A stretch of 64,000 nt of DNA from assembly GCA_949128115.1 (NCBI GenBank), contig OX421962.1, positions 104,128,836 to 104,192,835 on the forward strand. Reading direction: 5' to 3'. Source of the stretch: Anaspis maculata (taxonomy: Eukaryota > Arthropoda > Insecta > Coleoptera > Scraptiidae). The position numbers were made by a program, and so were the translations under genes. Shown piece after piece: positions 6,170 through 39,447 of the stretch. Numbering within the stretch: the stretch's first letter is position 1; each line of letters begins with the position of its first letter. The notes beneath the pieces were generated by a model. That model ran no database searches. It had not been told where the DNA came from and worked only from the letters and a program-made list of their open reading frames with translations.

Positions 6170-6420
6170 TGTGTAATAGTGTGCAATATCGTGCAATAGT
6201 ATGCAATATTGTGTAATATGTGCAATATCGTGCAATAGTGTGCAATATCGTGCAATAGTGTGCAATATCGTGCAATAGTGTGCAATAGTGTGCAATAGTG
6301 TGCAATATCGTGCAATAGTGTGCAATAGTGTGCAATATCGTGCAATAGTGTGCAATAGTGTGCAATATCGTGCAATAGTGTGCAATAGTGTGCAATATCG
6401 TGCAATAGTGTGCAATATTG
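6170..6420. repeat. Minisatellite, 10/20-bp unit (right array)
   Basis: The same GTGCAATATC/GTGCAATAGT units as at 2646-2949, on the same strand, here with a regular 30-bp higher-order period over much of the array. The right edge is a short palindrome around GCAATATTGC (6412-6421). After that comes unique sequence leading to the terminal inverted repeat. Confidence 0.95.
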
Positions 6421-6460
6421 CACAGTTGGGACACCCCTTTCGCGAGTGATTACCCCCTCG

Positions 6461-7967: not shown

Positions 7968-8105
7968 TTTACTGCTATTGATCTGTGCCACAGGTTGAGA
8001 AGCGATTTTAATACTATTGATCGGTGTCATAGATTGAGCTATCGAGCAACGAGTTTTATACTGCTCTAAATCTGCGCGATCGGTTTGAGAAGTGATTCGT
8101 CCAAA
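7968..8105. repeat. Degenerate tandem repeat, about 45-50 bp period
   Basis: Three successive blocks share ATACTGCTMTNGATCTGTG-like starts and a GGTTGAGAAGCGATT-like middle. Divergence is high. The frame through it is not a convincing gene. Confidence 0.5.
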
Positions 8106-10197: not shown

Positions 10198-12380
10198 TAG
10201 CCCAGGCATTTTAGTTTTTGACCTGGAAAAAAATAACGTAAGTCTGAAAATTGGTGGAACGCTTCTACTTAGACCCCTCAACCACATACTGAAAGTCCTA
10301 AAAAATCCTATGGCCGCTTCATCGGTTTTTGGCGGCAAAAAGGTGTAAGTGACATTATTTTAGAAACTATTCATTAAAATACGCGTTGAAGTTTCAATAC
10401 AGCTGAAAACTTCCGAAAATGATCTTCTCGGTCAGGTGAACAGCATATTGAAAGTCCTTAAAAATCCTCTCTCCGCTTCATTGGTTTTTGGCGGCAAAAA
10501 GGTTCAAATGACATTATTTTGGAAACTATCCATTAAAATACGAGTTGGAGTTTCAGTACAGCTGAAATTTGCTAAAACTGGTCTCCTTTGTCAGTTAAAC
10601 AACATACTAGAAGTCCTTGAAAATCCCATGTCCGTTTCATTGTTTTTTGGCGGCAGAAAGGTATAAGTGACATTTTTTTGTTACTATTGATTTAAATACG
10701 GGTTGAAGTTTCAATACAAGTAAAAATATTGAGTCTCTTCGGTCAGTTGAGCAGCATACTGAAAGTCCTGAGAAATCCTAGGTCCGCTTCATTGGTATTT
10801 TGGCGGCAAAAAGGTGTAAGTGACATTGTTTTGGAAACTGTTCAATCAAACAGGCGGTCAAGTTTCAATACAGCTGAAAAGTGCTTAAAATGGTGTCCTT
10901 GGTCAGCTGAACAAAACACTAAAAATACTAGAAGAATCCCTGTTCGCTTCATTGTTTTTTTTTTTTTGGCGGAAAAAAGGTGTAAGTGACATTGTTTTGG
11001 AAACTTTATTTATTAAAATAGGCGTTGAAGTTCCAATTCATCTAGAAATTGCTGGAACTGGTTTCCTTGATTATGTGAACAACACACTGAAAGCCTCAGG
11101 AAATCCTATGTCCGCTCCATTGTCTTTTGGCGGCAAAAAGGTATAAGATCATTTCTTGAACCGATTGTTCAAAATATGTGTTGAAGCTGCAATACAGTTG
11201 AAAATTGCTGAAAATAGTCTACTCGGACTAGTACAGCCAACTAACAAAGGAGACCATTTTTAGCAATTTTCAGCTGTACTGAAACTTTAACCCGTATTTC
11301 AAAAAAATAGTTTACAATATAATGTCACTTATACATTTTTGCCGCCAAAAAACATGAAGCGGGCATGGGATTTCTCAGGACTTTTAGTGTGTTATCCAAC
11401 TAACAAAGTGTTATGTCCATATACATTTAAACTACGCGCCTTATGCGCGGCGCATTAGAGATAAGACATCTGTCAATGTATGTGCTCCCGGGCCGTCTGT
11501 GTAATTGGTTACAATGTGCAAGTACGCCGCCGAGTAAACTACTAGAGACATGTAGGTACCTGTCTTTAACTTAACCTTCCACACGTTACAAGTACTTCGA
11601 TACCCATGGGGGCTACCTCGTGCAGTGGGCACACCCCCCTTACATACATCAAACAAAGGATACTATTTTTCAGCAACTTTCAGCTGTGCTGAGACTTCAA
11701 CTCATGTTTTAATAAATAGTTTCCAAAATAATGTCACTTGAACCTTTTTGCTGCCAAAAACCGATAAAGTGAACATTATATTTTTTAGGACTTTCAATAT
11801 GTTGTTGAGCTGACCGAGAAGACAATTATCGGCAAATTTCAGCTGTATGAAAACTTGACCGCGTGTTTAATTAAATAGTTTTTAAAACAGTGTCACTTAT
11901 ATCTTTTTGCCGCTGAAAAAAAAAGTATGAAGCGGACATAGGATTTCTTAGGACTTTCAACATATGTTGTTCAACTGGCCGAGGAGACCATTTTCAACAA
12001 TTTTTAGCTGTATTGAAGCTTCAACGCGGGATTTAATTATTAGTTTGCAAAGCAATGTCACTTATACCTTTTTTTCGCTAAAAAACGATGAAGCGGATAT
12101 AGGATTTTTCAGGACTTTCAATATGTTGTTCAACTGGCCAAGGAGACCATTTGCAGCAATTTCCAGCTGTATCGAAGTTTCATCGCGTATTCTAATAGAT
12201 AGTTTTAAAATTATTGTCACTTACACCTTTTTGCCGCCAAAAACCGATGAAGCGGACATAAATTTTTTTAGGATTTTCAGTATGTGATTAAGAAGTTAAA
12301 GTGGAAGCGTTCTACCAATTTTCAGACTTACGTTATTTTTTCCAGGTTTTGGTCAATTTTGATCTAAAATGCCTGGGCTA
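10198..12380. mobile_element. E1: TAG...CTA foldback element with tandem-repeat arms
   Basis: The ends are TAGCCCAGGCATTTTAG and its reverse complement, flanked by TTA on both sides (10195-10197, 12381-12383). The left arm has about six head-to-tail units of about 170 bp, each with an AAGTCCT, a CCGCTTCATTG, a GGCGGCAAAAAGGT and a CAGCTGAAA block. The right arm has the same units inverted, with the switch near 11230. No protein is encoded, since the frames follow the repeat units. The terminal 17 bp match those of E3 (33555-37703), so E1 is probably a non-autonomous relative mobilised by the same enzyme. Its right arm is interrupted by a 243-bp insertion. Confidence 0.88.
11409..11651. mobile_element. 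TG...CA insertion in E1, possible small solo LTR
   Basis: One E1 subrepeat is split by 243 bp of unrelated sequence, which starts TGTTATG and ends CATCA. AACAAAG lies on both sides (11402-11408 and 11652-11658). TG...CA termini with a short duplication suggest a solo LTR of a small retroelement. The 7-bp duplication is longer than the usual 4-6 bp, and no related copy lies in this window. Confidence 0.5.
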
Positions 12381-12538
12381 TTATCTTGGTAGGCTTTTGT
12401 CGTAATATCATAAAGTATTGCGAAAACTTCCAAAGCACCTATGCAGATGATGTTCTTCAACATGCATTATAATGTTATAGCACGTAGCTCTTTGTGGCGA
12501 CTTCATCTTGATGGTTGACATCCCTATACAGGGTGTTT

Positions 12539-14878
12539 CAGAGATGATAGCAAAAAATTTAACTGTGGGTAGATCTTGTCAAAATATGACGAAAACCTAT
12601 ATACCATTTTGCAATGTTCGGCCTAATGACGAAGATACAGCCCTTCAAAGTTCACTTTTTTCGGACTTCAAAAATTTGTAACTCAGGAACGTTCCAAAAA
12701 ATTCAGCTCCAATTCAGCAGAAGCTGGTTTGTCATATTTATCTATCAACCTGCCAAATTTGGAAAGAATCCAACCAGTGGTTCATGAGTTATGAGGGTCA
12801 ATAATTTAGAAGCATCCGAAGAAAAGTTGACTTAACTTGACCCCTCATAACTTCTACGCCACTGATTGGATTCTTTCCAAATTTGGCAGGTTGATAGATA
12901 ATTATGACAAACCAGCTTATTCTAAATTAAAGCTAAAGGACCCCGCACGATTCCTATGGAAAATGGGTCTCGGTCAAATTCTTCAAGTTTTTCATATGTT
13001 GTAGCCCAATTCAACACTAACCAAAATCCATCGTCCGTTACTCAAAAAAATGGACAGTTTTTTTCCTACAAGGGGTTGAAGATGAGTTATTTCAAGATAA
13101 AGAAATATGTTCCAACGTAAGTGAGAACATTTCAACGTCCGTTCTAACATATATGGCTCACGACAACTCCCTTTTTCTTTTGTGAAAAGATCAACCCCCT
13201 CCCTCACCCCCAACCCCTACTTGTGAGTATCGAATTCGAAATTACGTTTGAAAGTCATGCTGATGGTTCTATTTTGTCGAATTATGAATTTTGGCTCAAA
13301 TTGTTTTTCCAACCCCCAAATAGGGGGTGGGGTTGAAAAAAAAACCATCGGTCAATCCGGCTGAATTTCTGATATTGTGCTTCATCAGTTTCGCTGAACA
13401 AGATGACCCAAGGAAAACTCGTTCGTATGACCAGTTTCCACCCCATAGAGGGTTGAAGTTGACTATAATGAAGCATAAAACATGTCTTCCATGTTCTAAA
13501 CCAAATGAATGAAAATAGTGGACTTTCATATCGTCTTGTTTTGTAAAAATGTCTATTATTCAAAAATAATTTCAACCCCGTCCCTCATCCCCTATCCTTG
13601 TTTCTGAACATCGTATTCGAAATAAATCTTAAAAATGTAGGAGAAGGTCAGATTCTCTGCATCTGATTGTGAATCCCCTCTCAAAATTCTCTTTCACTGA
13701 TATGCTTATGTTAGAGTGCTACCATAAGCAAGCAGGGTGAGATTTAAATTTTTTTGATGATTTTTGACTGGATTATTATTAAAAATATTGGTGTTTCTAT
13801 CAAGTTTCAACTTCACAGCAGGTTGAATATGTTCACCTGTACATAATTTCTAACTTTTTTCTTTTGTACGGATGCACCTCTATTCATAGTTTAGATTGGA
13901 GAATTATTGTCATCTGAAGCGAAAGCTGCTCAATCAAGGCAAAATATTATGTCACACTCTTATTCCAGCTACTGCGACCGTGTGAAGGATGAAATAAAAA
14001 TTGATATAATTTTCAGGATTTATTTCGAATATGATGTTCAGATACAGGAATAGGGGATAAAGGACGGGGTTGAGAGTATTTTTGAAGAATATACATTTTT
14101 ACTAAACAAGATAATATGAAAGTTCACAATTTCCATTCCTTTGGTTTATGACATGGAAGAATGTTTTATGCTTCATTATAGTCAACTTCAACCCTCTGTG
14201 GGGTGGAAACTGGTCATACAAATGAGTTTTCCCTTGGTGATCTTGTTTAGCGTAACTGGTAAAGCACAATATCAGAAATTCAGCCGAATTGACCGATGTT
14301 TTTTTTTTCAACCCCACTCCCTATTTGGGGTTTGTAAAAATAATTTGTGTCAAAATTCATAATTCGACAAAATAGAACCATCTGCATGACTTTCAAACGT
14401 AATTTCGAATTTGATACTCACAAGTAGGGGTTGGGGGTGAGGGAGGGGGTTGATTTTTTCACAAAAGAAAAAGGGAATTGTCATGAGCCATATGTGTTAG
14501 AAAGGACGTTGAAATGTTCTCACTTATGTTGGAACATATTTTTTTACCTTGAAATAACCCATCTTCATCCCCTTATAGGCAAAAAACTGTCAATTTTTTT
14601 TGGTAACGGACGATGGTTTTTGGCTCGTGTAAAATTGGGCTACAACATATAAAAAAATTAGAGAATTTGATCGAGACCCATTTTCCATAAGAATCGTGCG
14701 GGGTCCTTTGTCGGAACGTTCTTGAGTTAAAAATGTTTGAAATCCGAAGAAAGTGAACTTTGGAGGGCTATATCTTTGTCATTAGGCCGAACTTTGCAAA
14801 ATGGTATATAGGTTTTCGTCATATTTTGACGAGATCTACTCACAGTTAAATTTTTGCTATCATCCCTGAAACACCCTG
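12539..14878. mobile_element. Foldback element with CAGGGTGTTTCAG ends
   Basis: The left arm (about 12539-13635) and right arm (about 14010-14878) are diverged reverse complements nearly 0.9 kb long. The ends CAGGGTGTTTCAG and CTGAAACACCCTG are bordered by TA on both sides. The frames with G-rich, Pro-rich translations recur on both arms simply because the arms match. They encode nothing recognisable. The TA target fits mariner-type mobilisation. A partial third end of this family is at 19866-19965. Confidence 0.85.
12705..12934. repeat. Small inverted repeat inserted in the left arm
   Basis: The segment reads AGCT...AGCT, with arms 12721-12800 and 12838-12918 almost exactly complementary. 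The matching place in the right arm (about 14710) lacks it, so it arrived after the foldback was formed. No unambiguous target duplication was found. Confidence 0.75.
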
Positions 14879-15924
14879 TATGTGATTCTTAGCGTGTTGA
14901 ACGAAAAGCTTTTAGAACAACACCAAATTGTGGTATTCTTCTTGGCCCGCCCACTCGCTAGACCTCAATCCCACCGAACGCTATTGAAAACGAAGAGTTC
15001 CGTGCGATCATTTTCACTTTGAGAACCGCAACCATTGCACAACCACCTGGCAATAAAGAAAAAACATCGCGCACACCAGGATCGAATTTTACCGCTTTTC
15101 TATTTATAAAAATAAACATTTTATGGATCGTCGTTCTGTCCAGCTAAAATAAAACAAAATCTGTTTTGGCTCAAAACCTTGATTGATGCATCATCACGCA
15201 CTCGTGTAAATAGTACGAGCATAGATAGGTATAGGTTACCTAAAGCTCTTAAAGTGTATAAATACAATGTTTTTCCTGTGAAATCCGTTCGATTATGATG
15301 AACTAAATAATGTACGACAGACAACTTGAGAAACAACCCTCCACGGAACCATCACCTCTCTCTCCCCCCAAAGCACGTATTATTCAGCCTTCGTATACAA
15401 ATATGGAATGATGGACTCAGTGACTTATCCACGGTTTGATTCCTCATTCATTTCTCATAGTTGTTATTCGTTGCCTTTCAATCGAGAAAAACTTCGAGAC
15501 TTGTTAAAATTTTACGTCCGGAACTCCGAAACGAACATTCTGATGCCACGTATAAAATTCTGCTTTATCATCATTTGAGCGAAACTTCAGTCCATAGTAA
15601 ATATAGAACACAGGTACAGAAGCGGCTATACAAGAGAAAATTTCCGATTACGCTCCATTATTTATAAAATCATATCGATTAGGAGTGATGTTCCTCTCAT
15701 TACCAACAACCACCAAGAGAAAGCGATGTGGAGGGGGGATAGAAGGGTAGTTGTTGAGCTCGTTATCGGTTAAAGGCAACTACTAAGGGCAACCTGCGTT
15801 ATAATATCGTCGATTTCTTATTTTATTATTTAATGGAATGTATCCTGTTACAAGTAGTATCCCGTGGAGACAGAGACAGGGAGAATTATTATTGAATTAG
15901 GGGATTAATTGGGAATCTGAAACA
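14879..15924. other. Unassigned sequence
   Basis: No domain, repeat structure or exon could be supported on either strand. Confidence 0.4.
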
Positions 15925-18069: not shown

Positions 18070-18262
18070 AAAATGTGTGTTTCAGCACAGGGTCGAGATC
18101 TTCACCGACCACCAACATTGCATGGCGTTCGCACCATCGTTCACATTTCACGTGCTATGCGACAAGCAAGCCTTTCAACTGAATCAAGGAACTTATTTTC
18201 GAGACGAAAATTCGACCCCCCACTGGTGGGGATCGAATCCACGGACCTTTGCATGGCACATG
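18070..18262 (-). repeat. tRNA-related SINE, 5'-truncated (family 2)
   Basis: Read on the minus strand, GGATTCGATCC resembles a Pol III B box. The rest matches the SINE at 25790-26031 block by block: TCTCGA, TCGCATAGCACGTGAA, CGAACGATG, GTTGGTGGTCG. The A-box part is missing. The frames on the plus strand across it are chance. Confidence 0.7.
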
Positions 18263-21125: not shown

Positions 21126-21790
21126 TTACTTTTCTGATGTTCCAGATTCCCATGGATTTGTCATTCGGATCTTCTCGTTCAAATGCCCACGAACTGATTT
21201 TACTCTTTTCCTTGCAAGGCCCAGTAAATTCTGGTGAGAGCTTTGCCGAAAAATACTTTGCAGCATCCGAGAAAGTGTGATTCTTTTTCCAAACCAGTTG
21301 GTCTCTGTCCCAGAGCCTTTAATTTTCACTAGAGTTCTCGGCTGGCGACGCGCGGATCATTGTTCTCGTTGTTTGATTCAACCTTTCGGTTGGATTCGCC
21401 TGTGGGTGGTAAGCCGGATTGAACAAAATTACACGTCATACTTCCTTGCAAGACTCGCGAGTTCTTTAGAACGAAACTGAGGTCCAATGTCGCGTCGGAT
21501 TAAATGGAGTAGCCATGTACACGGAATAGCTGATCCTTTAGCAGCCGACAAATTGCAGAGCCCGTAGCTTGTCTTAGCGGGAACAAACAGCAAAACTTGG
21601 CAAAGTCATCCATAACGACTAAGATATACTGATAGCCTTGTGTGCTTCTAGGCAAGAGTCCGAAAAAGTCCATAAATATCCTCACCCAAGGTTTCTGCGG
21701 TGGTATCAGAAAAGACATCAGTCCAATTGGTTTTCGTGGTTTCTTGCAACGGTTCACATATCGAGAGATATCTTGCAAGGCCAAGTGTGA
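21126..21790 (-). pseudogene. Ty3/gypsy integrase relic
   Basis: Minus-strand translation gives an integrase core start with WVRIFMDFFGLLPRS, then YQYILVVMDDFAKF (the first catalytic Asp lies in the DFFG stretch). A frame-broken SD...FV, a HPxAN-like segment and a TERLNQ-like segment follow (catalytic Glu region near 21385). The C-terminal part includes a SDAAKYF-like region near 21260. Several frameshifts and stops separate these pieces. The order on the minus strand, RT then RNase H then integrase, is that of Ty3/gypsy pol. Confidence 0.85.
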
Positions 21791-21959
21791 TTGATTTGGA
21801 GTCGTTTCTACGTTTAAAAAACATCAGGGTTTCCAGCTGTTGGATCGTTATGAAATTTACATTCCATTCACGTTAATTATTTTGAATCGACAATAAAGTT
21901 ATTGAAATAGAATTGCGCGTTTCCAAAATACAGCGTTACAGCTCCAACGAGTGAGGCTG

Positions 21960-22215
21960 CCATTGGGGTCCTTCAATAAATTGAGCCTTTGAGGGCGAAG
22001 TGATCCGTCACGACAAAAAAGTGAGCTCCCTCCATTCAGAGTGTCAGCTTTTCAATGGTTCAGACCACCGCCAAACACTCCTTTTCGATAGCGCTGTAGT
22101 TCCGTTCACATTTTTGTTCAGCGACCTTGAGATGTAAAACATGACATACTATCCATTGTCGGAGACCTGCGCCAGGCTACCCCTGATCCATAAACATTAT
22201 CGGTCGAAGTCTTCC
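21960..22215 (-). pseudogene. Ty3/gypsy RNase H relic
   Basis: On the minus strand the frame-broken text reads NYSAIEKECLAVVW, then FFVVTDHFAL. This is the RNase H segment between the RT thumb and integrase in gypsy-type pol. The Glu of EKEC and the Asp of TDH correspond to catalytic acids. It is frameshifted and cannot be active. Confidence 0.85.
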
Positions 22216-22249
22216 GTTGCTATGATAATACTGTCAAATATACAAACAC

Positions 22250-22740
22250 GGAAACACGTGTTGCTTCAAATTAGCGCCTGAGACACGGTCTATCAGACGC
22301 TGCCACGTAGCTGGAGCTCCATAAGACCAAAGGGGAGACGTTCAAACTGAAAGAGACCAGACCGGGCACAGTGAAAGCAATCACGGGACAAGATTTATCT
22401 CCAACTGGGACCTGCCAGTAGGCACTCTTGATATTAAGAAAAGATGGGTACCGCACCTCCCCTAAGCAATCTAGAATGGCAGAGATGAATAGAGACGGAT
22501 AAGCGTCTTTCGGTTACAGCGTTTATATTTTGTTAATAGACGGAAAACCGATGCGAGCCATTCGGTTTCTTCACTTTTACAGTTGGAGACGCCCAAAATG
22601 AGGTTGATGGTTCCAAGACACCAGTTCCAGCATCTGGTCTCCAAGCTTCCGCGCACGCGCTTCTGGAGTGCTGTCAAGATGGGGTAATGACGTTGTTTTA
22701 TACATATACCGTTCCCGGTTTCGGGGTGTTCCATAAGTGC
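22250..22740 (-). pseudogene. Ty3/gypsy reverse transcriptase relic (palm/fingers)
   Basis: The minus strand reads SEETEWLASVFRLL, a broken INAVTER-like stretch, then YPSFLNIKSAYWQVPV and AFTVPGL. This corresponds to the fingers and the first catalytic motif, in which Asp is replaced by Asn in the LNIKSAYWQ segment. The YxDD part is lost. Together with the two preceding entries this is one decayed pol, about 1.6 kb. LTRs for it were not identified. Confidence 0.85.
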
Positions 22741-23693
22741 CGTACAGTCAAAAACCGGCCCAGGATCCGAAAAGATCTCCTTCGATCAAGAAAAAAGACA
22801 ACCGACTCTGCTGTTCCGTGGATATTCACCTTATTAGGATTAAACGCCAAAAACGGCTTGAAATCGGTCGGCCGATCGGCTGATATTTGAATGATGTCAT
22901 TACCATCTCACATCGAACGGTTTTGGCGTGCAAATGCCATAAGCACTGTCAAAATGCCAAATTAAGAGCTCGAACTGACCAAAACCCAACTATACCGTTT
23001 GCTTACCGGCCTCCGAGACGGGTCGTTTCGGTGACAGCTGATCGACGATTTTTGACAGCTGACAGTTCCAATAATCAGTTTTTCAGAGACCAAGATTTCA
23101 GTAGACCAAAACGAACATCGGAACATACCTTTAGTTCCAGTTCCAATGGGTACGTCACACTGACATGAGTACGACAGAATGTCGTCACCGTAGTGTATAT
23201 AAACAAAACATTTTCCTGGAAGTCAACTTATGACCTTGTCTAAACCCAAATTAGCTCACATTATACCATAGAAATCGCATTAGAACTACACATGCTCGAT
23301 TCATATGCCGTACACGTGTGAGTGTGGGTAGGCAAATACCTCATCAGACCAGTACTATTACAACAACATTGACTTTTCTCCTCCCTATATCCAACACCAC
23401 CACCACCACCACCACCACCACAGCACCTATCCTTTTAAACTGTACAAATACGCATGATTTACAATAATGATTGAATAAACACCCCACGGTCCCTGCATAA
23501 ACGCGCTCGTGATTTAATTGTTAGAGTACATTCTACGGGGAGTTTGCATACAATTATGGAAATAAATTGTACTACGGTGTGTGTATTTTGACAATTTGCA
23601 CTCCGTAAATTCAAGTGTGTGTGTGTGCTGCTTTGGTTAAGCAACAAGTTGACGTTCATGACGTCTGCGTACCAAGTTCATGACAAGTGGAAA
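22741..23693. other. Unassigned; ACC-repeat at 23391-23421
   Basis: A CCA/ACC trinucleotide microsatellite occurs near 23400. The part up to about 22870 may be leftover protease-RT leader of the gypsy relic, but no motif confirms it. Nothing else was recognised. Confidence 0.4.
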
Positions 23694-25007
23694 AGTGGTC
23701 GCGTTCATGTCGAGTCAATGATTATTATCGCAATCACGCGATTGATTGGTGAACATTCAAATTTTCAGCGGGAGCAACCAATCGAGTTCGACAAATTTGA
23801 ATTTTGACGAATCGCGTTATTGCGGTACGTGATCATTAGGCGAGCGGCCGTTAGCGAAAAACGTGCATTTTAAGGGGTTGAGTGACCACGGGCGTACAAC
23901 AACGATTTTTGATTTTCAATAGTAAGTACTAGATGGGGGTGTGCCGCTTGTGAATTTTTTTCGAAATCGCCCCATGGGAACTCTCGTCAGGGCCCCATTT
24001 CCATCTTTTTCTCAAAGTCATTTTTTCTTCATTTTTTGCATTCGGCAGCTCATAACTCAGCGACTATTGATGATAAAGCAAAGATTCTTTCACCAATACA
24101 ATGTCTGGATATTACTAATACCCTCCATATTACTTTTGTGTTGCATTTCGTGATAATAACCTTCCTGGACCATAAAAACATGAGAGGTGCAGAAATACGT
24201 CACAAGAACTTTGATATGCGGAAAGCTATATCAATTTCTCAAAATATGTGCACATATATGCGAGAACATATGTAGAGAATACTCCAAAGATGTTTTTGGG
24301 AGAAGGGCGTTGCAGCAGGATTCTTGGTTTTAGAATTATGATTTTTTCAAAATCCGACACTGATATATGCGAGCGGCCGAGCGGCCAAATTGGCGCGAAA
24401 CGAGGATTTTCATCAATGTCATTGAAAAAACATCACAGTATGAGCCACAACAGCGATCTTTTTTGTGCTTCACCTAGTAGTAGGTAGCTCAAGATTCGAC
24501 TAGACTTCAACCAAAGGTTCAACCTGAACTACCGTTTCCGTTAAACCGTTCTAAGGAGTCGTCTACTCCACTGCAACATTTTGGAATAAAAACTTGTATT
24601 GCAGTGATTTCTGTATGGATTTTATGTAAACCTCAGCTTTCGATTATTATTCTATTGTGTACCTATTTCAACATGGTGACCTCTCTTCCGAATGCTGGCC
24701 GTACTTGTCAAATAAAATGGCTAGACACTACACACAAAGGTCAATAACAGCTTCAAAGCTTCATAATAGATCGCCTTGAATCGAGAAATAATGATCAAAA
24801 CTTCTATGCACCTATACTATAAGAAACTCAAGCCCGAAGACGTTTTTGCCGACATGATGGATGAGGAGATTACTAATTACCATTCGCCAAGGTGGATTAA
24901 ATGTTCAGAAAATTGTCTCGAAGTCCTATTTCATCGGTGAGCGCTGGCTTTGTCAAAAAATCAAAATGATGTCGATTTAAAAAAAGTCTCAAGTTATCCG
25001 ACCACAT

Positions 25008-25160
25008 CCGTTCCATTTACAACACTTTGTGTCGGTTTGTGTCAACTGAAGTCGGCTTGTGTTAGCTTGTGTCGATAACACACAGCAACACAAATCAAAT
25101 GGAACGCATTTGTGCCGATTTGTGTCGACACAAGTCGACTTGTGTCGGTAAATGGAAAGC
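25008..25160. repeat. Small TIR patch of TTGTGTCGR-like units
   Basis: TTCCATTTAC (25012) and GTAAATGGAA (25147) enclose about ten copies of an 8-10-base TTGTGTCGR-like word in both orientations. It could be a miniature element or a simple repeat. Confidence 0.5.
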
Positions 25161-25789
25161 GTACAATAACAGCCGCAAAATCCAAATTGTTTTGGAGCGA
25201 GTGAAGTCGTGCCTGGCCAGGCTCTTTGTCTGAGATAGGTACATACAACGACTGTGTGTTTGGTGGATGGCTGAAATGCCTCAAAATAATTATTACTAAA
25301 AAGCGTTGCAGACATTTGACGACACTGTCTTGGAAAAATAACAAGGTTTCTTAATGCCAGCTATAAGTTCACTTAATTTTGGATCGGAACGACGAAGACG
25401 ATTCGCGACATAAAATTCGCAAGTTTCTAGAACAAATACGCTGCTATGCTACCAAAAAAAAAGCAGGTCTATGAAATCCAGAGGATTCAGTCAACACCAA
25501 ACTGGAGATTACTTTTTGTCGTGAGAAAGAACAAGAGCGATTCGTGTGACTTCTTGTCTCAATGAATAGAGTAGGATAATGCGCCAATCATGCGCCAAAA
25601 ACAGTTAGCAGACATCTCGGCAGATATGGAAAACAAATGAATCAATTATTTTGGCTGTTGGTTACAACAAAAGAACTCTTACAAAAACAATCAAGGTTCC
25701 TGGTTCAGGTACAAATGAAACGGAATCGTGTTCCGACGCCGGTGAATGCTTTCCTCCACTATACCGGAATTTTTTCCGAACTTTTCCCT

Positions 25790-26031
25790 GTGTAATGTGT
25801 ATTCCAACACATGGTAGAAATTTTCAACGACCACCAACATCGCATGGGGTCGCATCATCGTTCGTAGTTCACGTGCTATGCGACACACATTTGCATTTAG
25901 CAAGACATTTTAACTAAATCGAGAAGCTTTTTCTCGAGACAAAAATCCGATCGTCCTCGGCGAAGATAGAACCCGCGACCTCTGGCATAGCAGTCGAACG
26001 TGCTGACCACCACACCACAAGCTCCTCACAT
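25790..26031 (-). repeat. tRNA-derived SINE (family 2) inside E2
   Basis: The minus strand reads CTTGTGGTGTGGTGGTCAGC near the start (A-box-like). A Pol III B-box-like GCGGGTTCTATCTT follows, then the body shared with 18070-18262 (TCGCATAGCACGTGAA, GTTGGTGGTCG). It was inserted into E2 after that element was in place. Duplications were not resolved. Confidence 0.7.
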
Positions 26032-27727
26032 CGGATTTTTGTTGAATCGCCCGACACCGACGTTCTTGTGCTCTTACTGATGTATTGCCAAACAATGTGC
26101 AATAGACCTAGTTTGTGGGTAGAAACACTCCACTTCTGCCACCTTGGAGTAAACTTTTGGGAAGCTTTGCAGGATTGCAGGTCGTTTTATCCTTCAACAG
26201 AGTGCAATACAGTGTCAGCAATGTATGGCGTGGGCAAGAAATAAGCCTTTCAAGCGACAAGGAGAATAGAAATATCTGTTGGATCTGTCACCTCACTTCT
26301 TAGCGTCCTATCACTCCTATCATCACCCAACACATATCAATGATCGATAAAGTTTTGGAAGCAAGAAAATTTATCGTTTTTGTCTAAGATGCAAGCAGAA
26401 AACATGCCACCGATCATGGATCCGTAAATGATCTCCCGGCACAATTGGCTGTAAATAGCGGAAACAACCTTGACAGAGTGCCACTCTCGGAACCTGCATT
26501 AAATTTAAGCAACATGTGGCATATGAGCTTCATGACAAGCACAATCATGCATGAAGGACTCGATGAAGGAAAAGCTTCGTCACCCGAAAGTAGTATGGAA
26601 CCCTCCTAACCAGTGAAAAACTGCGATTAGATGATCAAAATTTCAAAGGTCAAACCAGCATAGAGTTGGAGTTTCTTCAGAATTGATTATCTTTGCAATT
26701 TCCATGGGAAGAAACCTTGTAAAGCCATCTCCCTTTGCCCATGCGAGGCAATTGGAATGTTATGCTCTGAAGTCTGCGGTCCTGTGCTGCTCGTAATTTA
26801 TGTAGGTAATAATAATAATCATTAAAAAGACACAAAGTGTGATAGGGGTGCCTACCTATGGAAGGTTATGAAGAGGTAGAAGGTAACTGACATTGAGTCT
26901 CAAAAAGGAATCGAAGTTCATACATAAAAAATCCACATCAAAATCACTGCAATACAAGTTTTTGTTCCAAAATGTTGCAGTGGAGTAGACGACTCCTTAG
27001 AACGGTTTAACGGAAACGGTAGTTCAGGTTGACCCTTTGGTTGAAGTCTAGTTGAACCTTGAGCTACCTACTACTAGGTGAAGCCCAAAAAAGACCGCTG
27101 TTGTGGCTCATACTGTGATGTTTTTTCAACGATATTGATGAAAATCCACGTTTCGCGCCAATTTGGCCGCTCGGCCGCTCGCATATATCAGTGTCGGATT
27201 TTGAAAAAATCATAATTCAAAAACCAAGAATCCTGCTGCAACGCCCTTTTCCCAAAAACATCTTTGGAGTATTCTCTACATATGTTCTCGCATATATGTG
27301 CACATATTTTGAGAAATTGCAGCATTCCGCATATCAAAGTTCTTGTGACGTGTTTCTGCACCTCTTATGTTTTTATCGTCCTGGAAGGTTATTATCACGG
27401 AATGCAACACAAAAGTGATGTGGAGGGTATTAGTTATATCCAGACATCGTATTGGTGAAAGAATCTTCGCTTTATCATCAATAGTCGCTGAGTTATGAGC
27501 TGCTGAATGCAAAAAATGAAGAAAAGATGACTTTGAAAAAAAGATGGAAATGGGGCCCTGACGAGAGTTCCCATGGGGCGATTTCGAAAAAAATTCACAA
27601 GCGGCACACCCCCATCTAGTACTTACTATTGAAAATTAAAAATCGTTGTTGTACGCCCGTGGTCACTATAGCTCGAAAAATAGGGAACGGCCGCTCGCCT
27701 ACATTACTTGACATAAACGCGACCACT

Positions 27728-30700
27728 GTGACCAACTTGCCGTCAACAGTATATCATCAAGAAGAAGCGCATCGCTGTGACAATCGATGATTTTGTGCCA
27801 TGTTACGGCTACGAACGTTGTTATGGACGCGATTGATTTTTCATTAAGGCGCTTTTTTCCTCAAGTTTTTTCTGCTCCAGGAGCATTTGCATTTCGATTA
27901 ATATAACATTAAGCGGGTCAACCTTTTTAAATTCATTTGTTCTTGTTAACGCGAGACAGATCGATGAGTGCATGGCACAGATGTACATAACCGGAGTAGG
28001 GCAGGGTAATAATTGCTGAGGGTAGGTGGGTGTGTGTGTGTTGAAAAACGCATGTGACTTGATGAAAACTTGGAGTATCTTCACACGTTCCGTTTTTCTC
28101 ACATTAATAGGAGTTTGTGATATAAAAACGTGTCGCCGGTACTATTTCCACGTGGTCTTTTCATGGCATCACGCCAGATGTCACTTCTCACGCTTCCATA
28201 ATTCAAACAGCAGCATATTATCGCCGCGATGCTAGATGGGATGGCAAGTGGTATGTGTATAGCGCAGTAAAAGGCCGCTGTATTCCGTCTCATTTGATAT
28301 AACTATAATTGAAAATATCCATTTTTCATGGGATAAAATATCTATAATACAGCGCACGATATAGTATATAGTAATACAGCGTGAAGTATGTCCATAGAAC
28401 GAACTGCTGCATTTTCTTGATGTTGAAGGTCTTTCTTCTGAAGGCTAGCTATGGCTTCCTGAGATTTCTTGAATTGGTTAATGGTCGCTCTATGAAAATA
28501 CTGTCGGGATTTGCATAACGGCGCACCCGGCATGTTTCGGTTTAACCGACTCAACGGCGTACCCGGTAAGCGCAGCGCCTCCTAGATGCTCCTTCTAGCT
28601 CCAGCCAGCCCCTTCTATCGCAAATGAACTTTGAAACGGTAAATTTCCGTGAAAACTGCAGAGTTGCAAAAACACATGTGCACTTCCGGCGCAATGGCAT
28701 TTCCTGCATAGGACATCAACCTTGATGGAGAATCATCATGAAAAGTGATGACGATAGGTAGTCGATAAAAAGGCTTGTGTGACTGTATGTACGTGTGGAT
28801 CATACATTCATACTGTATGTTGGATTTTTATGGTGAATGAGCAGCACCTTCTTCAAAAATTTGCAGGGACCGCGATAAGAGGTCTCGTGTCGTTTAATAA
28901 ACAATTTTGCCTTGTCTGCAGTAGGGTAACTTTTATACAGTCTAATGGTTGAAGCTATATTCTTAGATTACAGTCGAGCAGTGAGATGAACAATCCATTT
29001 CTACAGATTCTAGGGGGTTTATCTTGATCAATCATCTAGAATCCGCCGAAAAAGAAATTCCATAATCATATAGATTAGCCTAATTATCTATTCTAAAACC
29101 AGCGGCAGGACTTTTCACTTTCTTTTTCTATTCGATTTTTTTTTTGTTATTTTGATAAATCAAAGCCACTGACACGACGACACACGGGAAACTCCTCTAC
29201 TGTTCAATTATTCACGACGGCGTATCCCTGAGTGGCGAGGACAGTAATTGCTGTGCTCGTACAAACCGGAGTTAATTTCTGGTTAAATGAACTTTGGCTT
29301 GTATGTTAAAAAGAAATTGTGTCCCGCACATAACGTGTGACATTCCCCCTTTCCCATTCCCACCTCTAACATTGTGGCCGCAAGGTTCATTTCGTTAATA
29401 ATTTAAGGCATCGTATAATCAAGGACCACGGCGCGCACCCGCCTGGTTTATAATTCATCGGAGTTTATGTGTGTATGTTGGGTATCTTTAATTGCTAAAC
29501 TTTAAAGCTCTGTCTGCAATGGCGGGGCTTGATATGTACCATTAAAACTACAGGAATTAGTAGTACGTGGAGATCAGCACGATTGATAAATCGTTGACAT
29601 GTACGTCTTATGCAAATTGACAGGTGACAGCGTCACGCGCGCCAACGTCACCGACAAAAACTCCCCGGGACGTTCGTGACCCTTATTAACACAAAATCGC
29701 ATGTTCTTCTACCATGTGTGTTGTGTGTATGTGTGTAAATAGCGGTAGTAATAAAGGACGTGGGATGTAGGCGAATGTCACAGGTTATGATGTTATGTTT
29801 TGTTATGACAATAAAACGATTTTCCATCATCACAATTTGCATCAATAAGGAATAAACAAAGAGCGTGCATACGGACACGGAAAATTGAAATCAACGATAG
29901 GAAAATTACGCTATAAAAATGTGGTGTTATCAATTCAAACAGATTACTTCTAACGGTCGGTAATTTTCGAAACGCCAAAAGAAACAAAAAATCCGAAAAC
30001 AAATCAATTTTTCAATGAGGCGTCATGAAAACACAAAAAGCTTACTCAATGAGCATTGCATGGCATGCAACTTGTTGGATGCGTTGTTCAAACTTGATTT
30101 TCATTTCTCCCTGTGTGTACACTACAATTTTTGTAATTCAAACAAGCTTCAAGTTGCTAAATAACAATGAGTTATTTGCCTTGAACACCGTCAGGTTATT
30201 CAACCTCAAAGTTTGGTGTTGGTGTGATAATCCAAATTCTTTTGAGAAATCAATATTAGCAGAGCGAGGACTGGAGCACGGATGCACATTATGCAAATTG
30301 GTAAACAATAAAACAGCTTCATTAGGCGCGATAAAACGATGTGATAATGAAATTACCCTTGGTGGAAAAGTAAAATGGGTAAAGCATGTTGTGGCTGTTA
30401 TTAAGGGCTGTATTATCAGCAGGCCAAAATTATTTTGAGGATTTCTCCCTCAAAAATGGAGATGAAAACTCTTTTTTTTATACGGTGTATTGAAAAACTT
30501 AATACGTGCAGAGCGTTTTTTGAATTATGTGAGAAAAAATATTCTTCTCTTTTTTGTTGACAACTTTTTCTCAAAAAAACGGCTCTGTATTCAAATTTCT
30601 ACGTCTCAAAATTATAAAACAGATGATAATTTTTTCGTTTGTCAAAGAATGTCCCAGCAATCCTTTAGAAACTTTTTTAGTGTTATAAGGCTATTGGGCT

Positions 30701-31975
30701 TCTAAAAACAAATGTAGGGTAATCCAAACGGAAACAAGGTGGACAAACATCTAATGGAATCCCATCAAAATCTCTATATCTCTTTATCTTTATTTTTGAG
30801 GGAGAAATATTGACATCCTGCGTATACAGCCTTAAGAACCTAGTTTTTGTGGTCACCTACAAATTGTTGAAAGAGTGGTAAAAAGTGCCTCGAGAGGACA
30901 CTTTTGTTCTTGATTGCTAAATATTGCACTTCATTACGTACCAGCAATGAGATCTAAATCGATTTTTCTTGAAAACCGTGCATTTCATGGAAATTCAACA
31001 AGAGCAATATGTGAAATTTCATAGTGTTACGTTAAACTTTGAAAAACTGACAAAAAAGTTGGAGGGGATTTTAAGCTCCCCCCCCCTCAATCAATTCGAT
31101 ACCACCGGGGTGGAATTTTGAAACGATCTAATCTTATCTTGTGAAGCATAAAAACCTAAGTGACTGTAAAAGATTCTGTCTTTTACCTCGAACGGTTTCC
31201 GAAATAAACTATGAAAACTACAGTTGAAAGTCAACTTTGGACGCCTGTATCTCTCTCTTAGGAAGCATTTTGGTGTAATGTTGAATTTGTTTAAATCGAC
31301 TAATTTTGTTAGGAATATGAGGTTCCTTTTGTGTACCTACTTATCTCTGGGACACCTGTATATGGCAGACCCCGTAATTAGTGCACTGCACTTACAGGTT
31401 TTCATTGTAAAAGACATCAATTTTTTAGATGAGGGATCCAGGAATGAGAGAGCCCTGTCAAGCACAAATCAGGAATCACAAAAAACTCATCAGATAAAAG
31501 AACCGATTTTCCAATAAAATATTGCCGTGTGAACGCAGTAAAAACCATGACTCTGCTAACGGATATTTTATTACTAAAATCATGATTGATTACTTATTCA
31601 ATAATAGCATTGTTGTAAAGAAATGCACCTGAAAGCATGCATTACTATCCCACTTACATTACGTAAAAATATATGCAGTGGTTGAAAAAAAAATCATAAT
31701 ACTTTTCACCTCGATTTCCTACTCCGCGATTTCCCCCTGGCTGAACAATTTTTTTCTTTTAACCGCAACTCACCTCGACTTGGAACACATCTTGTTCAAT
31801 GACACAACTGAATTGGTTGAATGTATCAGCGGTTAAAGAATAACTCTAATAATCATGATTGTGAACAGATAAGATTAGGCACAGTCATGAGAATTACGAT
31901 GTCGAATTTATTTGAACTTGTATTCCAGAAGTGAGCTGGCATTTCCGCGTGCGACAAGCCAAGTGTTGGACTTGA
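27728..31975. other. Non-coding; small TIR pair at 30440 and 30811
   Basis: No domain is recognisable in the longest frames, including a 137-codon plus-strand frame at 30025-30438. ATTTCTCCCTCAAAAAT at 30440 and its reverse complement ending at 30811 enclose about 370 bp, perhaps a miniature element, but no duplication flanks them. A C-run of eight near 31080 may cause assembly noise. Confidence 0.4.
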
Positions 31976-32214
31976 ACATAACCTCAAAATAACTGTCACT
32001 ACTCACTAGCGTCACGAAATGCACAATTTCCAGCTCGATCGATCCGTCATTCAAACATAATTTTTCCTTCAGGCTTCAGGTAATAAATTCCAGCAAGTTG
32101 GCAACGTGTCACACGTCTAACAAGTCACGTGTTTGACATAACCTCAAAAATATAACTGTCACTATGACTGTCACGAACGTCATAAATTGCACAATTTCCC
32201 GCTCGATTGATCCC
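31976..32214. repeat. Diverged tandem duplication, about 162-bp period
   Basis: CATAACCTCAAAATAACTG... CGATCGATCC (31976-32043) recurs at 32138-32214 with small changes, both followed by unique DNA. Non-coding. Confidence 0.7.
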
Positions 32215-33303
32215 CGCCCGGCCACCCCCCCCACGTGAGGCAATTTCGTAATATTTAATATTTACATGAAAATCAATGACAAGTCGTCTAGACACTGCCG
32301 GGCTAGATTCATGTGGAGCAGCACAACAAATCTCTTTATAAAATTCTATTATTGTAATGCGGGAGCTGGAGTTGAGGAGAGAAAGGGAAAAACGGAACAA
32401 TGAACAATATTACCGCAAACGTAGGTGGTGGTGTGTAGCATTTTCATTATTTACACGAACACATGTTGTAAATTATCGCGTATTTTTGGGACGCCGACTG
32501 ATGGGTACATCGTCAGTGCCAAAAAAGTAATTCGATTCGGGTTTTAATTCATTTTTTCGCCCGCGCCCCGCGCTAGATATGTACCAATCACATTAATGAC
32601 AACACGCATTCGCCCGTTTATTGGATTAATTGAAGATCTTTAACGAAAAGCGAACAGAGTGGGGTGGGTGGGGTGATGAGCTTCGATTCAATGTCAACCA
32701 ACGGTGAGCCAGTATAGAGAGATGGATATACAACGCGAGTTTCCATTACCATCATCAAATCATCAATGTTTCACCATCGAGCAGCGAATCCATCGATACC
32801 ATCAGTGCACAACCATGAACTTATTCAAGCTCGATTCATAATGTGGAATTCTCAATGGGTTTCAAACACTTATTGGTGTTTGGATAAGGATGTCGTTATG
32901 AAAATGCAATGAACAAATGTGCAAAGCGCATTTATTGGAATGGTTCAGAAGAATAGCAATTTATTAACACAATACAGTGTAAGAAAATGAGCCAGGCTGG
33001 TGCAATTACACAGGAATTTCATTTCAAAACGCCCCACCTCCAATTTTTCCTCTAAAAAATTTTTACCCCAAAAAATCCGAATCTTGCTCCATCATTTGTG
33101 ACTACCCTTCCAAAAATTTCGGTATATTTCGGAACAGAGGTCGGGTAATACATCATTCTGAAGGCCTTCTGAATCTCTTCATTTTAATGCAAAAAGAAAT
33201 CAAATCGAATCACCCGTATTCACGGTCACGGTCAAACGCAGGGTACTACCCTTGAAAAAATTCCAACGGGAATGGGATCGAGTGAGAAACCATTTTTAAG
33301 GCC
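32215..33303. other. Unassigned sequence
   Basis: Nothing coding or repetitive could be supported on either strand. Confidence 0.4.
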
Positions 33304-34652
33304 TTTTAGTCCGGTGGTTAAGCGCCAAAAAAAGCTCGAACTATGCATTTTGAGCTTAAGCAATGCGCTTTTGGGGTTCGATTGGGGATCCCCATACCTT
33401 AATTTCAAGAGTTGGAGACATCGGTGCACTCGATGCGGAGGGGGTCTGGGGGGCCCTTGAAAGTTGAAGGTGCGAGGCTTCCCACCAAATCACCATACCA
33501 CCACGAAATTCCCACTTGAATTTCATTAAACGACTCTAACCTACACATTGACAATAGCCCAGGCATTTTAGGTCTAAAATCGACAAAACCTGGAAATAAT
33601 TCGCCCACGGCTGAATTTTTGCACATTAACAGCTTGGACCTAGTACAACAACATATCAAAATACCCAAACTTTCCCGTGTCCGCGTCCTTGATTTTTAGG
33701 TCCTCAAGCTCTTGAAGTTGCATCGCTGAGCTCAAACCCATGCCGTAATATTAATCTTGAACCGATCAAACTCAGACTGGGCTTGAATTGAAGAGAATAG
33801 ATCAAACAATGATTTTCTGCAGCGAGTGGCCCACATCCGGTACGCGGCGAACCGGCAAACCCGCGAAATTCAAAATTAACGCTGTTTTTCGCGACGACTC
33901 TTTACAGAATTTTCGCTTTGTATCGTGCACCAAAAATAAACAGTGGCAAACCATAGGTCAATGCATTCAAATATTTTTCAGCTTTCCAAGCGTATATTTA
34001 TGGTACCTGTGGAAGCACCGATTGCAAATAGACAGGCCCCAGACTGAACGCAAGTTAGGGTGAGGCGAGCTCTGAGTTGCACTATACCTAATTATGCGAG
34101 CGCCATAATTGTGATCGTGGGTGACTACTAGGTGTCCACATCAATATTACTGTGATTATGAGCTGTCTTGGGCTACATATTATAAAGCTTCTATAGGATT
34201 ATACCGCAGTGACAGTATCACAAGCAGAATTTTTGAGCAATGTCCACAATAAGGTTCGTCTCATAAAAATGCTGACACAACACAATTTCGAAGAGCCCAG
34301 CGTGGTCGTACATCAAGCCTTTGACGATGCAGACTTCCTCATTGTCACTAATGCAGTGGAGGAACTAATATGTGGGCAGTAGGTTGTCGTCATCGAAAAC
34401 GACACTGACGTATTAGAGATGATGATTACCCGGATATGGAAAGCGAGCAGTGCGTAGATACAATCATGTTGCACCCAGTACAAGCAAGAATTCTGGCAAG
34501 TTGTACGATATTTAGGGGATTGGGGAAGAAGAGCTATGTGATCTTGAAGATGCCTTGTTGCTTGCTTATACTGTGACCGGAAGGGGACGGGAGGGGGGAA
34601 CTTACGCGATGTTTGGAGAAAGCAAAAAGAACGCCTGAGTAAAAGTTGCCCC

Positions 34653-35368
34653 CAGGGCCGGCAACTTTGGATTTGAACGTGTGGTGCTGACTATTGAATA
34701 TTTCAGAAAAAAGGACTGAGAGGGGGGTATCAGCGTCGCAGGCGATTTTTTTTTAAGTTTAGAAGTCTGAACTTGAAGAAAAAAACTATTCAGGCGCACG
34801 TCAATCACGTCATATTTGAATAAAATATACTATAGGTACAGGCTGGCCCAAAATAAAGTAGCCAAACGCATATGGGAGATAGCCCGGAAGAAATTAGAGG
34901 CCCCTACAATCCCTACATATTTTTTTCGAAAATCGAATTTCTTTTTATTTAACTTTTTATTAGTTCTACTACTGGTTGGAATCAAGTAAAATTGTGCCAA
35001 TAAGTGGGGAACCATTCTAAACAAGTCTCTGGCTATTTTCAGCCAAATACTTCGACCCGTTCATAAATTATTCATGAAAACCCAATAAAAATATTGAGCT
35101 CTCGCAAAAAATAATATAGAGGTCGTTCAGTGTCTTCTGGCCTTCCATAGGCCGTTGGCTACTTTATTCTGGGAAACCTGTATGATATAGGGGTAATAAT
35201 ACATAAATAAAACTTTTAAAGTTCAACAAAAATTCTCGAAATTGGTAAATTGGAGTGCTATGGCGCTAATTTCAATTTTTTCTTTTTCAACATGTGGTGC
35301 TCAGCACCACCTCCTCGGATTACGTGTGGTGCTCGAGCACGTCAGCACCACTATTGTTGCCGGCCCTG
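34653..35368. mobile_element. hAT-type miniature element in the E3 gene
   Basis: The ends are CAGGGCCGGCAAC and GTTGCCGGCCCTG, with a perfect 8-bp duplication GTTGCCCC (34645-34652, 35369-35376). Both the 8-bp duplication and the CAGGG-type terminus are hallmarks of hAT elements. No transposase is present. Just inside the right end is a GTGGTGCTCAGCACCAC palindrome. Confidence 0.9.
34839..35180. mobile_element. TA-flanked miniature element nested in the hAT
   Basis: CAGGCTGGCCCAAAATAAAG at the left and CTTTATTCTGGGAAACCTG at the right are imperfect inverted repeats. TA borders them (34837-34838, 35181-35182). This fits mariner-type target use and it is the fourth layer of nesting here. Confidence 0.75.
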
Positions 35369-36539
35369 GTTGCCCCAAAAAGACGAACCACTTCGGTTTG
35401 GAGTCGTGAGTGTTTTCAATTCTGCATCTTCCATCCACAAGTAAATGTCGAGTGCTGAAGAAAAGTTGGATGCATACTCCATTCAAGCCAAAAAGTTGAA
35501 AATATTGACGATTCACGCCTTCACTTGTACAACCAAGCGATTGCCAAGCAGACTGTGACATCATTTTTTTACCTGTTGACGCTTCCGCCAACTAAAGCTA
35601 CTCTTCATCAGCACTCTGGGGACTTATCTCCAGGTTAGCTCTAGTTATGACTTCACTGTGCAGTGAATATTTCAAGTCAGTATTTTGATCGTACTGCGAC
35701 ATTTCTGATCTGCAGTCTGCACCGTCCACGTTTCCCATGTCCAAGAATAGATGGGAAACGATCGAGGAAACGATCTCCCTCCAACAAATGGGATGGCAAC
35801 GCGTGGAAGACATACTGACGCCAGCACCCACACATCTTCCTGCAGCACCTGATTCCTTAATGCCGTGTAATCTAATACCGTGTAACTGCAGGGAAGGTTG
35901 TGGAACTCGATGCACTTGCAAACAATAAGCTGGGCAAATCTGCTCAGACATGTGCTCGAACTGCAAAGATACGAATTGTTCCAATCGCTATTATTTTTTG
36001 GGGTCAGTGCTGACAACCTGATTATGTTGATGACAACGATGACAACCATGTTACACTGAATAAAATGTATAGGACCACCTAGAATAGCATAACTAATCAC
36101 CAGCTAGAACAATCAAAACCTTCAGTCATGATGCGAAAAACGCATTGTGGTACGTACCATCTATACCTATCAGTCTTGAATCGTTTTCAGAGACGCCATC
36201 CGGAATTTATGAAACGTAGCAGCTACCTACTTGCTTCATATCATGATTGAAGAGCTATGAGCTAAACATTTTCAGTGTGTTATTGCATTCCAATTTTCCA
36301 TTACATTTTCATGGTCTACTTTATCTATATGCACATTTTGAATTACCACAATAATGCAACTAAGTACATAAATGACATGAACATTCATGGCGTAGACTTC
36401 TTGATAATATAAATATGTAGTTGTCCCATTGGATGTGCGAGTATAAAAAAAATATGTGTTCCATTCGCCAATAACTCAAAATGAAAAGAATCATGAAAAA
36501 CAATAAAGTCAATACAGACAGAGATCGCGTTACCCTGAC

Positions 36540-37030
36540 TCGAGTTTAGTCTGGGGGCTGTGTATTTGAGATCGGTGCTTCCACAGACACCATAGATACA
36601 TACTTTGGGAGCTGAAGAATCGCTAACTGCATTAAGCTTTGATTCACCTTTTCTTTTTTTGATGAACGATACAAAGCAAGAGTTCTGTGAAAAGTCGTCG
36701 TGGATAACAGTGTTGATTTTGAATTTAGCTGTCGGATTGCTGCGGACGGATGTGGAACGTTTGCACCAGAAATCATTGTTCGATTTTTCTCTTTTCATTC
36801 CAGTTTAGTCTAGCTTGATCGGTTCAAGATTAATACTACGGCATGAGTTGCAGCTCAGCGGTGCAACTCCAAGAACCTGAGGACCTGAAAACCAAAGACG
36901 CGGACAGGGGAAAGTTTGGGTATTTTGATATGTTGTTGTACTAGGTCCAAACTGTCAATTAGCATAAATTCAGCTTAAGGCGAATCATTTCTATTTATTT
37001 TGTCGATTTTTGACCTAAATTGCCAAGCTA
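36540..37030 (-). repeat. Extra internal copy of the E3 right end
   Basis: On the minus strand this matches the first 490 bp of E3, starting with TAGCTTGGCAATTTAGGTC at 37030, and lies just inside the true right TIR in the same orientation. The right side of E3 is therefore a tandem pair of ends, perhaps from a duplication or from an insertion of a related copy next to it. It is more diverged than the outer TIR. Confidence 0.7.
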
Positions 37031-39447
37031 TAACGCATTATATTGTTAAATGAAAAAAGCAACATACCTTTCAGACATACAACTGAATATATAACCCTGA
37101 GATAGCTCATAATAATCACAACAGTGATATTAATGTGGACACCCAGTAGTCACCAAGGATTACAATCGTGCTCACAGATCGCAAAACAGAGCTCATGTCA
37201 CCTTGACTAGCGTTTAATCTGGAAGCTGTCGCTGTATATTTGTAATTGGTGCTTTCACAGACACCATAGATACATACTTGGAAGACTGAAGAATCACTAA
37301 ATGCATTGAGCTATGGTTCACCGTTGTTATTTTTTTGATAAACGATACACAGCGAGAGTTCCGTGAGAAGACGTCGCGAATAACAGCGTTACTTTTGAAT
37401 TTCGCGGGTCTACCGGCTTGCCGCGCACCGGATGTGGGACACTCGCAACGGAAAATCATTTTTTGATCTTTTCTCTTTAATTCAAGATCAGTCTGAGTTA
37501 ATTCGGTACAAGATTAATACTTCGGCATGAGTTGCAGTTCAGCGATGCAGATTCAAGAACTTGAGGACCTGAAAATCAAAGACGCGGACATGGGAAAGTT
37601 TGGGTATTTTGATATGTTGTTATACTAGGTCCAAACTGTCAATGTGCAAAAATTCAGCTTTGGGCGAATTATTTCTAGGTCAAAACCTAATTTGACTGGG
37701 CTACAACATTTAATAACCATGTCCCAACAGTTCTTCACACTGAAAAAAATTAATTCTTATGACAGATCGGAAAAAACAGTTTTTCTCAAATCTTCATCCC
37801 CACAACGGATAAACTGCCAAGTTTGGTGCCATTCAAGAGTGAACGGCATCCTCTGATTTCATTCACCGAGTCAAAATGTTTGTGAGACCACCGTGCAAAG
37901 AATGGCACGCCAAGAAGTGAGCATTTTTGAGCACCTCATTTAACAGTAGTTTCTTGACTGATATCAATCGATATGATTGATAATTTTGACATGAATGAAT
38001 AACTTGAACTCTTCTGTAACGGTAATACATGTGAATGAAACTCGACACGAGCGTGGAGGCATGGGAAAAAAATTTTTCTCCAGCGGTCGAATTTATTCCA
38101 CGCCTACTGAGCGTTAGTTTGTTGGACTCAGGCAGGCAGCGTTTGAATAGGTTCGGAGACAAAATTTCCATATCTGTCTATGCAGCTGAGTAGCATAATT
38201 CTGGAAACTGATTTGAGAATCATCAAAGATTATTTTGACAGTCACTAGGTACCCCCATGGGGATTAACTGCAGGGATCATGGCTGACGACGGAGAGCATT
38301 CAACTTTTAAAGTGTTATTTTCTATTTTCCTCTACCAACCTTCAAGGTTGTTATCATTTTGTACGTGTAAGTTTTCTTATGTTTGAAGAAGAAATAATTT
38401 TATAAAAACAACCGTGAAAATGACTGTCATAGTGGCAGAAAATAAGATCTTGGACGTTGAATTTCCTCCGCCGTCAGCCATCACCTCTGCAGTTAACCAC
38501 CATGTGGGTACTGACCGGCAAAACAATCATTGATGATTCATAAATCGATTTCCAGAATTAACTGCTCAACTTTTCAGAAAGATATGGAAATTTTGCTTCC
38601 AAAGCTATCCAAACGCTGCCTACCTGAGCCCAACAAACTAACGCTCAGTAGGCGTGAAATAAATTCGACCGCTGGAGAAAATTATTTTTTTCCAAGCCTT
38701 CACGCTCGTGTCGAGTTTCATTCACATGCATTACCGTTACAAAAGAGTTCAAGTTATTGATCCATGACAAAATTATCAATCATATCGATTGGTATCAGCC
38801 AAGAAACTACTGTTAAATGAGGTGCTCAAAAATGCTCACTTCTTGGCGTGTCATTCTTTGCACGGTGGTCTCACAAACATTTTGACTCGGTGAATGGAAT
38901 CAGAGGATGCCATTCACTCCAAAATGACACCACACCTGGCAGTTTATTCGTTGTGGGGATGAAAAATTGAGAAAAACTGTTTTTTCCGATCTGTCATAAG
39001 AATTAATTTTTTTCAGTGTGAAGAACTGTTGGGACATGGTAACAAATGTTGTCAATGTGTACGTTAGAGTCGTTTAATGACATCCAAGTAGGAATTACGT
39101 GGTGGTATGGTGATTTGGTGGGAAGCCTCGCACCTTCAACTTTCAAGGGCCCCCCAGACCCCCTCCGCATCGAGTGCACCGATGTCTCCAACTCTTGAAA
39201 TTAAGGTTGAGGGACCCCCAATCAAACCCCAAAAGCGCATTGCTTAAGCTCAAAATGCATAGTTCGGACGCTTAACCACCGGACTATTTCATCTATCTTT
39301 ATTTTGGTGTGGAAAATCACAAAATCGTACCGCCCCTTTTCAAGTTACAATTTATTTCAATTCGAAGACTCTTCTTCAACTTTCAATATATTTATTTAAA
39401 AAAATCGTACCATGAGACAGGTGATTCGATTTCGTTTTCACACTTAA

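Follow-up and report, generated by a model that had tools for sequence, protein, structure and literature searches.

Two high-copy TAG...CTA transposon families of Anaspis maculata are very probably non-autonomous derivatives of Academ-like elements

We analyzed a 64,000-nucleotide stretch of the genome of the beetle Anaspis maculata (GenBank assembly GCA_949128115.1, contig OX421962.1, positions 104,128,836 to 104,192,835; hereafter, the window), which contains two TAG...CTA transposons, E2 and E3, each with the remains of a gene (Table 1). Very probably, both arose by deletion from Academ-like cut-and-paste transposons and are non-autonomous families of high copy number. The initial annotation of this DNA had given E2 and E3 a common plan of TAG...CTA ends, long terminal inverted repeats (TIRs), 3-bp target site duplications (TSDs), and one plus-strand gene each, and the structural part of this plan was borne out. 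The termini of E2 are TAGGCGAGCGGCCG and its inverse, matching at 14 of 14 bases, and its TIRs of approximately 790 bp are 95.3% identical across 751 aligned columns. The termini of E3 are TAGCCCAGGCATTTTAG and TAGCCCAGTCAAATTAG, with 3 of the 14 bases differing between the two ends, and its TIRs of approximately 570 to 600 bp are 80.6% identical across 573 columns. The TSDs are CAT for E2 and CAA for E3. The right end of E3 is also partly duplicated, with 36518-36993 forming a 495-column direct repeat (82%) with 37186-37677 that is also inverted relative to the left TIR.

The 757.8-Mb genome (50 contigs) was searched for further copies. The left 1001 bp of E2 gave 40 scored matches among 526 candidates, at 95 to 100% identity. 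The ends of fetched E2 copies were located without reference to their flanks, and 16 of the 20 other fetched copies yielded both ends, all 16 with perfect 3-bp TSDs of varied sequence; no end pair was located in the remaining 4. The E3 TIR gave 41 matches at 88 to 100% identity (40 of 503 candidates scored), and both ends were found in three of four fetched copies, with TSDs AAA, GTT, and TAT, the right end of the fourth (L054) not being located. For E4, a fold-back element, 40 matches were scored among 1302 candidates at 97 to 100% identity; both ends were found in four of six fetched copies, each with a 3-bp TSD (TGT, CAG, TAC, and TAT), and no end pair was located in the other two. E3 is inserted into the left arm of E4, and the uninterrupted target site with one CAA is present in E4's own right arm and in all six other fetched E4 copies. 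These seven empty sites with a single CAA prove the borders of E3 and its duplication. Two E3-family copies (C8:14986-15584 and C8:26907-27505), separated by 12 kb, score equally and share their left flank bases, perhaps through local duplication. In two E2 copies (L018 and L028), insertions that differ from each other, of 535 and 988 bp, occur at a single base of the right TIR, majority position 3448, a CATATA-type site.

The window was also scanned for 14-mers starting with TAG and paired with an inverted CTA end at no more than 2 mismatches, 1 to 9 kb apart and with identical 3-bp flanks. Exactly three pairs were found, each matching at 14 of 14 bases: E1, E2, and E4. The same scan of 20 first-order Markov control sequences gave 0 to 2 pairs (mean, 0.45). 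E3 was missed because the 3 mismatches between its ends exceed the limit. E1, which has E3-type ends, matched neither the nuclease nor the DDE transposase profile.

The annotated genes proved to be fossils. Pieces do lie on the plus strand of each element, but neither gene is intact, and what had been called a two-domain gene corresponds to the C-terminal half, in broken form, of a protein of approximately 1500 residues. In E3 the pieces are spread over three frames, with stops and an insert that we take to be hAT-like, and the remnant begins downstream of two of the candidate catalytic acids. All 20 E3-TIR loci, the window copy included, contain the same C-terminal stretch, with its onset at nuclease profile position 96 to 101. 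The E2 pieces (26038-26259 and 26736-26780) are weaker than those of E3, and their order is the same; a similar order of parts had been proposed. A DTDVL nuclease motif had been credited to E3 only; it is present there, and E2 has it too, as SPDTDVLVLLL. The E2 interior is collinear with residues ~959 to 1519 of the protein of an open-frame relative, L058 (described below), and the transposase half is absent from E2. The majority sequence of 17 E2 copies, each 1.0 to 2.6% divergent from it, is likewise frame-broken, indicating that the E2 family multiplied after its gene was broken. No match to the transposase profile was found in any of 48 loci representing 41 distinct copies of E2 and E3 (the E3 loci spanning only ~2.1 kb of each element), in four longer E3 stretches, or in the whole E3 of the window. 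Strikingly, nuclease sequence was retained and the transposase half lost in each of the two defective families that bear gene remains, and both multiplied without that half. Having neither an intact gene nor this half, the E2 and E3 families would need proteins supplied from other loci. A direct repeat of 93 bp (84%) has one copy outside E2 (18072-18164) and one inside its fossil (25794-25885) and looks like a small inserted repeat.

Relatives with long open frames are present in the same genome, and six related loci were fetched (L049, L050, L051, L052, L053, and L058). When the E3 nuclease piece was used as the query, 89 genome matches were obtained (150 of 271 candidates scored), some inside long open frames. 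L049 and L050 have an open frame of 1496 residues and are 99.89% identical across 8211 bp. A scan that required a TSD yielded one pair of ends at each of three loci: L049 (locus positions 76-8456, ends TAGTCCAG, TSD CGA), L051 (7476 bp, 1491 residues, ends TAGCCCAG, TSD TAG), and L053 (6125 bp, one stop, ends TAGTCCAG, TSD ATA). No TAG...CTA pair was found for the other two of these five loci, L050, which is without the left end of L049, and L052. The latter (C2:104590300-104600299), a degenerate member ~400 kb from the window, has antisense gene fragments (8-471) that lie inside internal inverted repeats, upstream of the gene of this element. The E2 piece 26038-26241 gave 85 genome matches (94 of 94 candidates scored), one of which, L058 (C2:34710462), is 76% identical to it over 34 residues and lies within a frame of 1533 residues. 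The L058 element is 6840 bp long with TSD TAA, and both of its ends are exactly the 14 terminal bases of E2. The TIRs of L058 are 82.7% identical to those of E2. E2 is an internal-deletion relative of L058. Searching the genome with the L049 DDE region returned 64 matches (59 of 324 candidates scored), among them open frames of 1471 residues (two copies), 1491, 1496 (two copies), 1525 (six copies that scored equally), 1533, and 1535. The two copies with 1471-residue frames stand head to head ~2.3 kb apart with equal scores (C6:45806196-45808454, minus strand, and C6:45810744-45813002, plus strand).

Modeling shows the ~1500-residue protein as a predicted DDE transposase domain, an Exo1/FEN1/XPG-type nuclease, and a cysteine-rich tail, and the PIN/XPG-like nuclease suspected earlier is thereby supported at the level of models. 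The DDE assignment comes from a second-look aligner, with Foldseek giving no DDE match at E <0.001; identity to the P element transposase (6p5a) is 11%. P elements make 8-bp duplications and are not known to have an XPG domain. The putative nuclease shares with the Rad2 family (Exo1/FEN1/XPG) its fold, over ~257 residues of Exo1, and conserved acids, but identity is ~14%, and here the domain is fused to a transposase and CXC tail and encoded within transposons. Pfam DUF6589 (PF20231) was reached by the transposase region in two of three relatives scanned, P0032 (32.7 bits) and P0130 (35 bits; cut-off, 27), whereas the L049, L051, and L058 proteins themselves fall below the cut-off and the function of this family is unknown in Pfam. 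The full proteins gave nothing above cut-off in Pfam and NCBIfam; the sole NCBIfam match of L049 (CudC, 17.3 bits versus a cut-off of 218) and the sole Pfam match of L058 (14.3 bits versus 26.5) are chance-level. L049 had only weak matches among PDB sequences (best E, 0.46), and its DDE region had 59 pattern matches among viral contigs, none of them confirmed. The broken pieces gave less still: three E2 frames had no Pfam match, and the E3 pieces had a single chance-level PDB match (E 1.6), none at E <= 0.01 among 278 candidates from proteins of 158 to 504 residues, and nothing in Pfam or viral contigs. The family became visible only via the longer genomic copies. Among the relatives listed, database names are unnamed, hypothetical, uncharacterized, or Tesmin/TSO1-like CXC. 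A weak match (E 0.002) was also seen at 60262-60128 of the window.

Academ transposons have been described before but have received little study, and the elements described here fit this kind. Academ is defined by a protein with DDE plus XPG, and the superfamily and its AcademX lineage are reportedly due to Kapitonov and Jurka in 2010 and Kojima in 2020. The link to Academ drawn by the initial annotation is partly supported: the filing under Academ (AcademX) is likely though unproven, being based on features. These features are a predicted DDE/D transposase domain and XPG-type nuclease in one protein and 3-bp TSDs in every E2 (16 of 16) and E4 (4 of 4) copy with both ends and in the window elements. 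According to PMC10045372, duplications are 3 to 4 bp in AcademX and 9 to 10 bp in AcademH, in relation to the encoded nuclease and helicase. The elements described here, whose terminal motif is TAGNCSRG and whose TIRs reach ~1 kb, share with AcademX a DDE transposase, a nuclease, and 3-bp duplications. AcademH, reportedly of the Academ class, differs in its helicase and 9- to 10-bp duplications from the nuclease and 3 bp found here, and no helicase family was among the Pfam matches of the L049, L051, and L058 proteins.

That the elements form a superfamily new to description, Academ-like only in DDE domain, nuclease, and 3-bp duplications, appears improbable, given that PMC10045372 ties AcademX to a nuclease and TSDs of 3 to 4 bp. 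Such novelty would accord with Pfam offering nothing beyond a family whose function is unknown, with the uninformative labels of the relatives, and with a literature search that found no paper pairing "Academ" with "XPG" as whole words; the definition of Academ by a DDE plus XPG protein again speaks against it. Duplications of 3 bp also occur in PIF/Harbinger, CACTA/CMC, and Zator, but membership in any of these is very improbable, since the termini here are TAG and not CACTA, the TSDs extend beyond TWA (TTT, CAA, TTG, CAG, GTT, and CGA), and these superfamilies are not known to carry an XPG nuclease. Taken individually, PIF/Harbinger, whose duplication is TWA, was rejected on TSDs that include TTT, TTG, CAA, CTA, CAT, and CAG, and CACTA, whose elements end in CACTA bases, on ends of TAG[N]C. 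Least credible of all is a functional short nuclease gene owned by E2 and E3 as a selfish helper or cargo, because although the same C-terminal part is retained in both gene-bearing families, frames are broken in E2, in its 17-copy majority, and in E3, and two of the candidate catalytic acids precede the start of the E3 remnant.

For Academ-like elements with non-autonomous derivatives, the domains suggest how movement would most likely proceed. Transposase from intact copies would bind TAGNCSRG termini in trans, and its DDE domain would excise the element and insert it into target DNA cleaved with a stagger of 3 bp. The XPG-type nuclease would trim or resolve flap, hairpin, branched, or junction DNA during excision or gap processing. 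E1, E2, E3, and E4 would all be mobilized in trans, E2 and E3 moving only with the help of such proteins. The fusion of transposase and nuclease raises the question of the second nuclease's role in transposition, which is made testable in this genome by long open copies (two of them nearly identical over 8.2 kb), by defective families that match them, and by the clear motif at the ends. The L049/L058-type animal proteins called "uncharacterized" or "Tesmin/TSO1-like CXC," and part of DUF6589, are suggested to be likely transposases. We regard as unlikely a wider proposal, that a large, deeply split, mostly animal superfamily with TAGNCSRG ends, which may differ from published Academ, uses its P-element-like DDE and Exo1/FEN1-like nuclease as two catalytic centers of one machine, the nuclease cutting a flap, hairpin, or branched intermediate; if true, this action could explain the unusually long, fold-back TIRs.

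Table 1. Features of the TAG...CTA elements in the window
Feature	Positions	Strand	Details
E2, non-autonomous TAG...CTA transposon	23837-27701	+	3865 bp; TSD CAT at 23834-23836 and 27702-27704
E2 left TIR	23837-24628		pairs with 26921-27701
E2 right TIR	26921-27701		pairs with 23837-24628
E2 gene fossil	24720-26780	+	order as L058 protein residues ~959-1519; frames broken; approximate positions, obtained by conversion from the majority sequence of E2
E2 nuclease remnant	26038-26259	+	SPDTDVLVLLL ... AMYGVGKK
E2 cysteine-tail remnant	26736-26780	+	CPCEAIGMLCSEVCG; L058 counterpart CPCKAIGMLCCEVCS
E3, non-autonomous TAG...CTA transposon	33555-37703	+	4149 bp; TSD CAA at 33552-33554 and 37704-37706
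E3 left inverted repeat	33588-34153		pairs with 37121-37680
E3 right inverted repeat	37121-37680		pairs with 33588-34153
E3 XPG-type nuclease remnant	34209-34424	+	FLSNVHNK, DDADFLIV, ENDTDVL; single in-frame TAG
E3 nuclease C-terminal remnant	34459-34650	+	LLLAYTVTG ... AMFGESKKNA; identified by eye in this copy and by profile in others of E3
Presumed hAT-like insert splitting E3 remnant	34653-35368		CAGGGCCGGCAAC ends; 8-bp duplication GTTGCCCC
E3 remnant, LPPT segment	35369-35617	+	
E3 remnant, CXC cysteine tail	35779-35985	+	terminates in CSDMCSNCKDTNCSN
E4, fold-back element hosting E3 insertion	33307-39286		~1.83 kb without E3; ends TAGTCCGGTGGTTA; TSD TTT
E1, element with E3-type ends	10198-12380		ends TAGCCCAGGCATTTTAG; TSD TTA

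Elsewhere in the window, minisatellite-like tandem repeats with several readable frames lie at 2531-3047 and 6091-6516, and minus-strand frames at 21500-22785 resemble, by eye, integrase and reverse transcriptase pieces of a long terminal repeat retrotransposon. Another long palindromic element, at 12526-14881, has a TA-type flank and ends resembling CAGGGTGTTTCAG, which sets it apart from the TAG...CTA kind.
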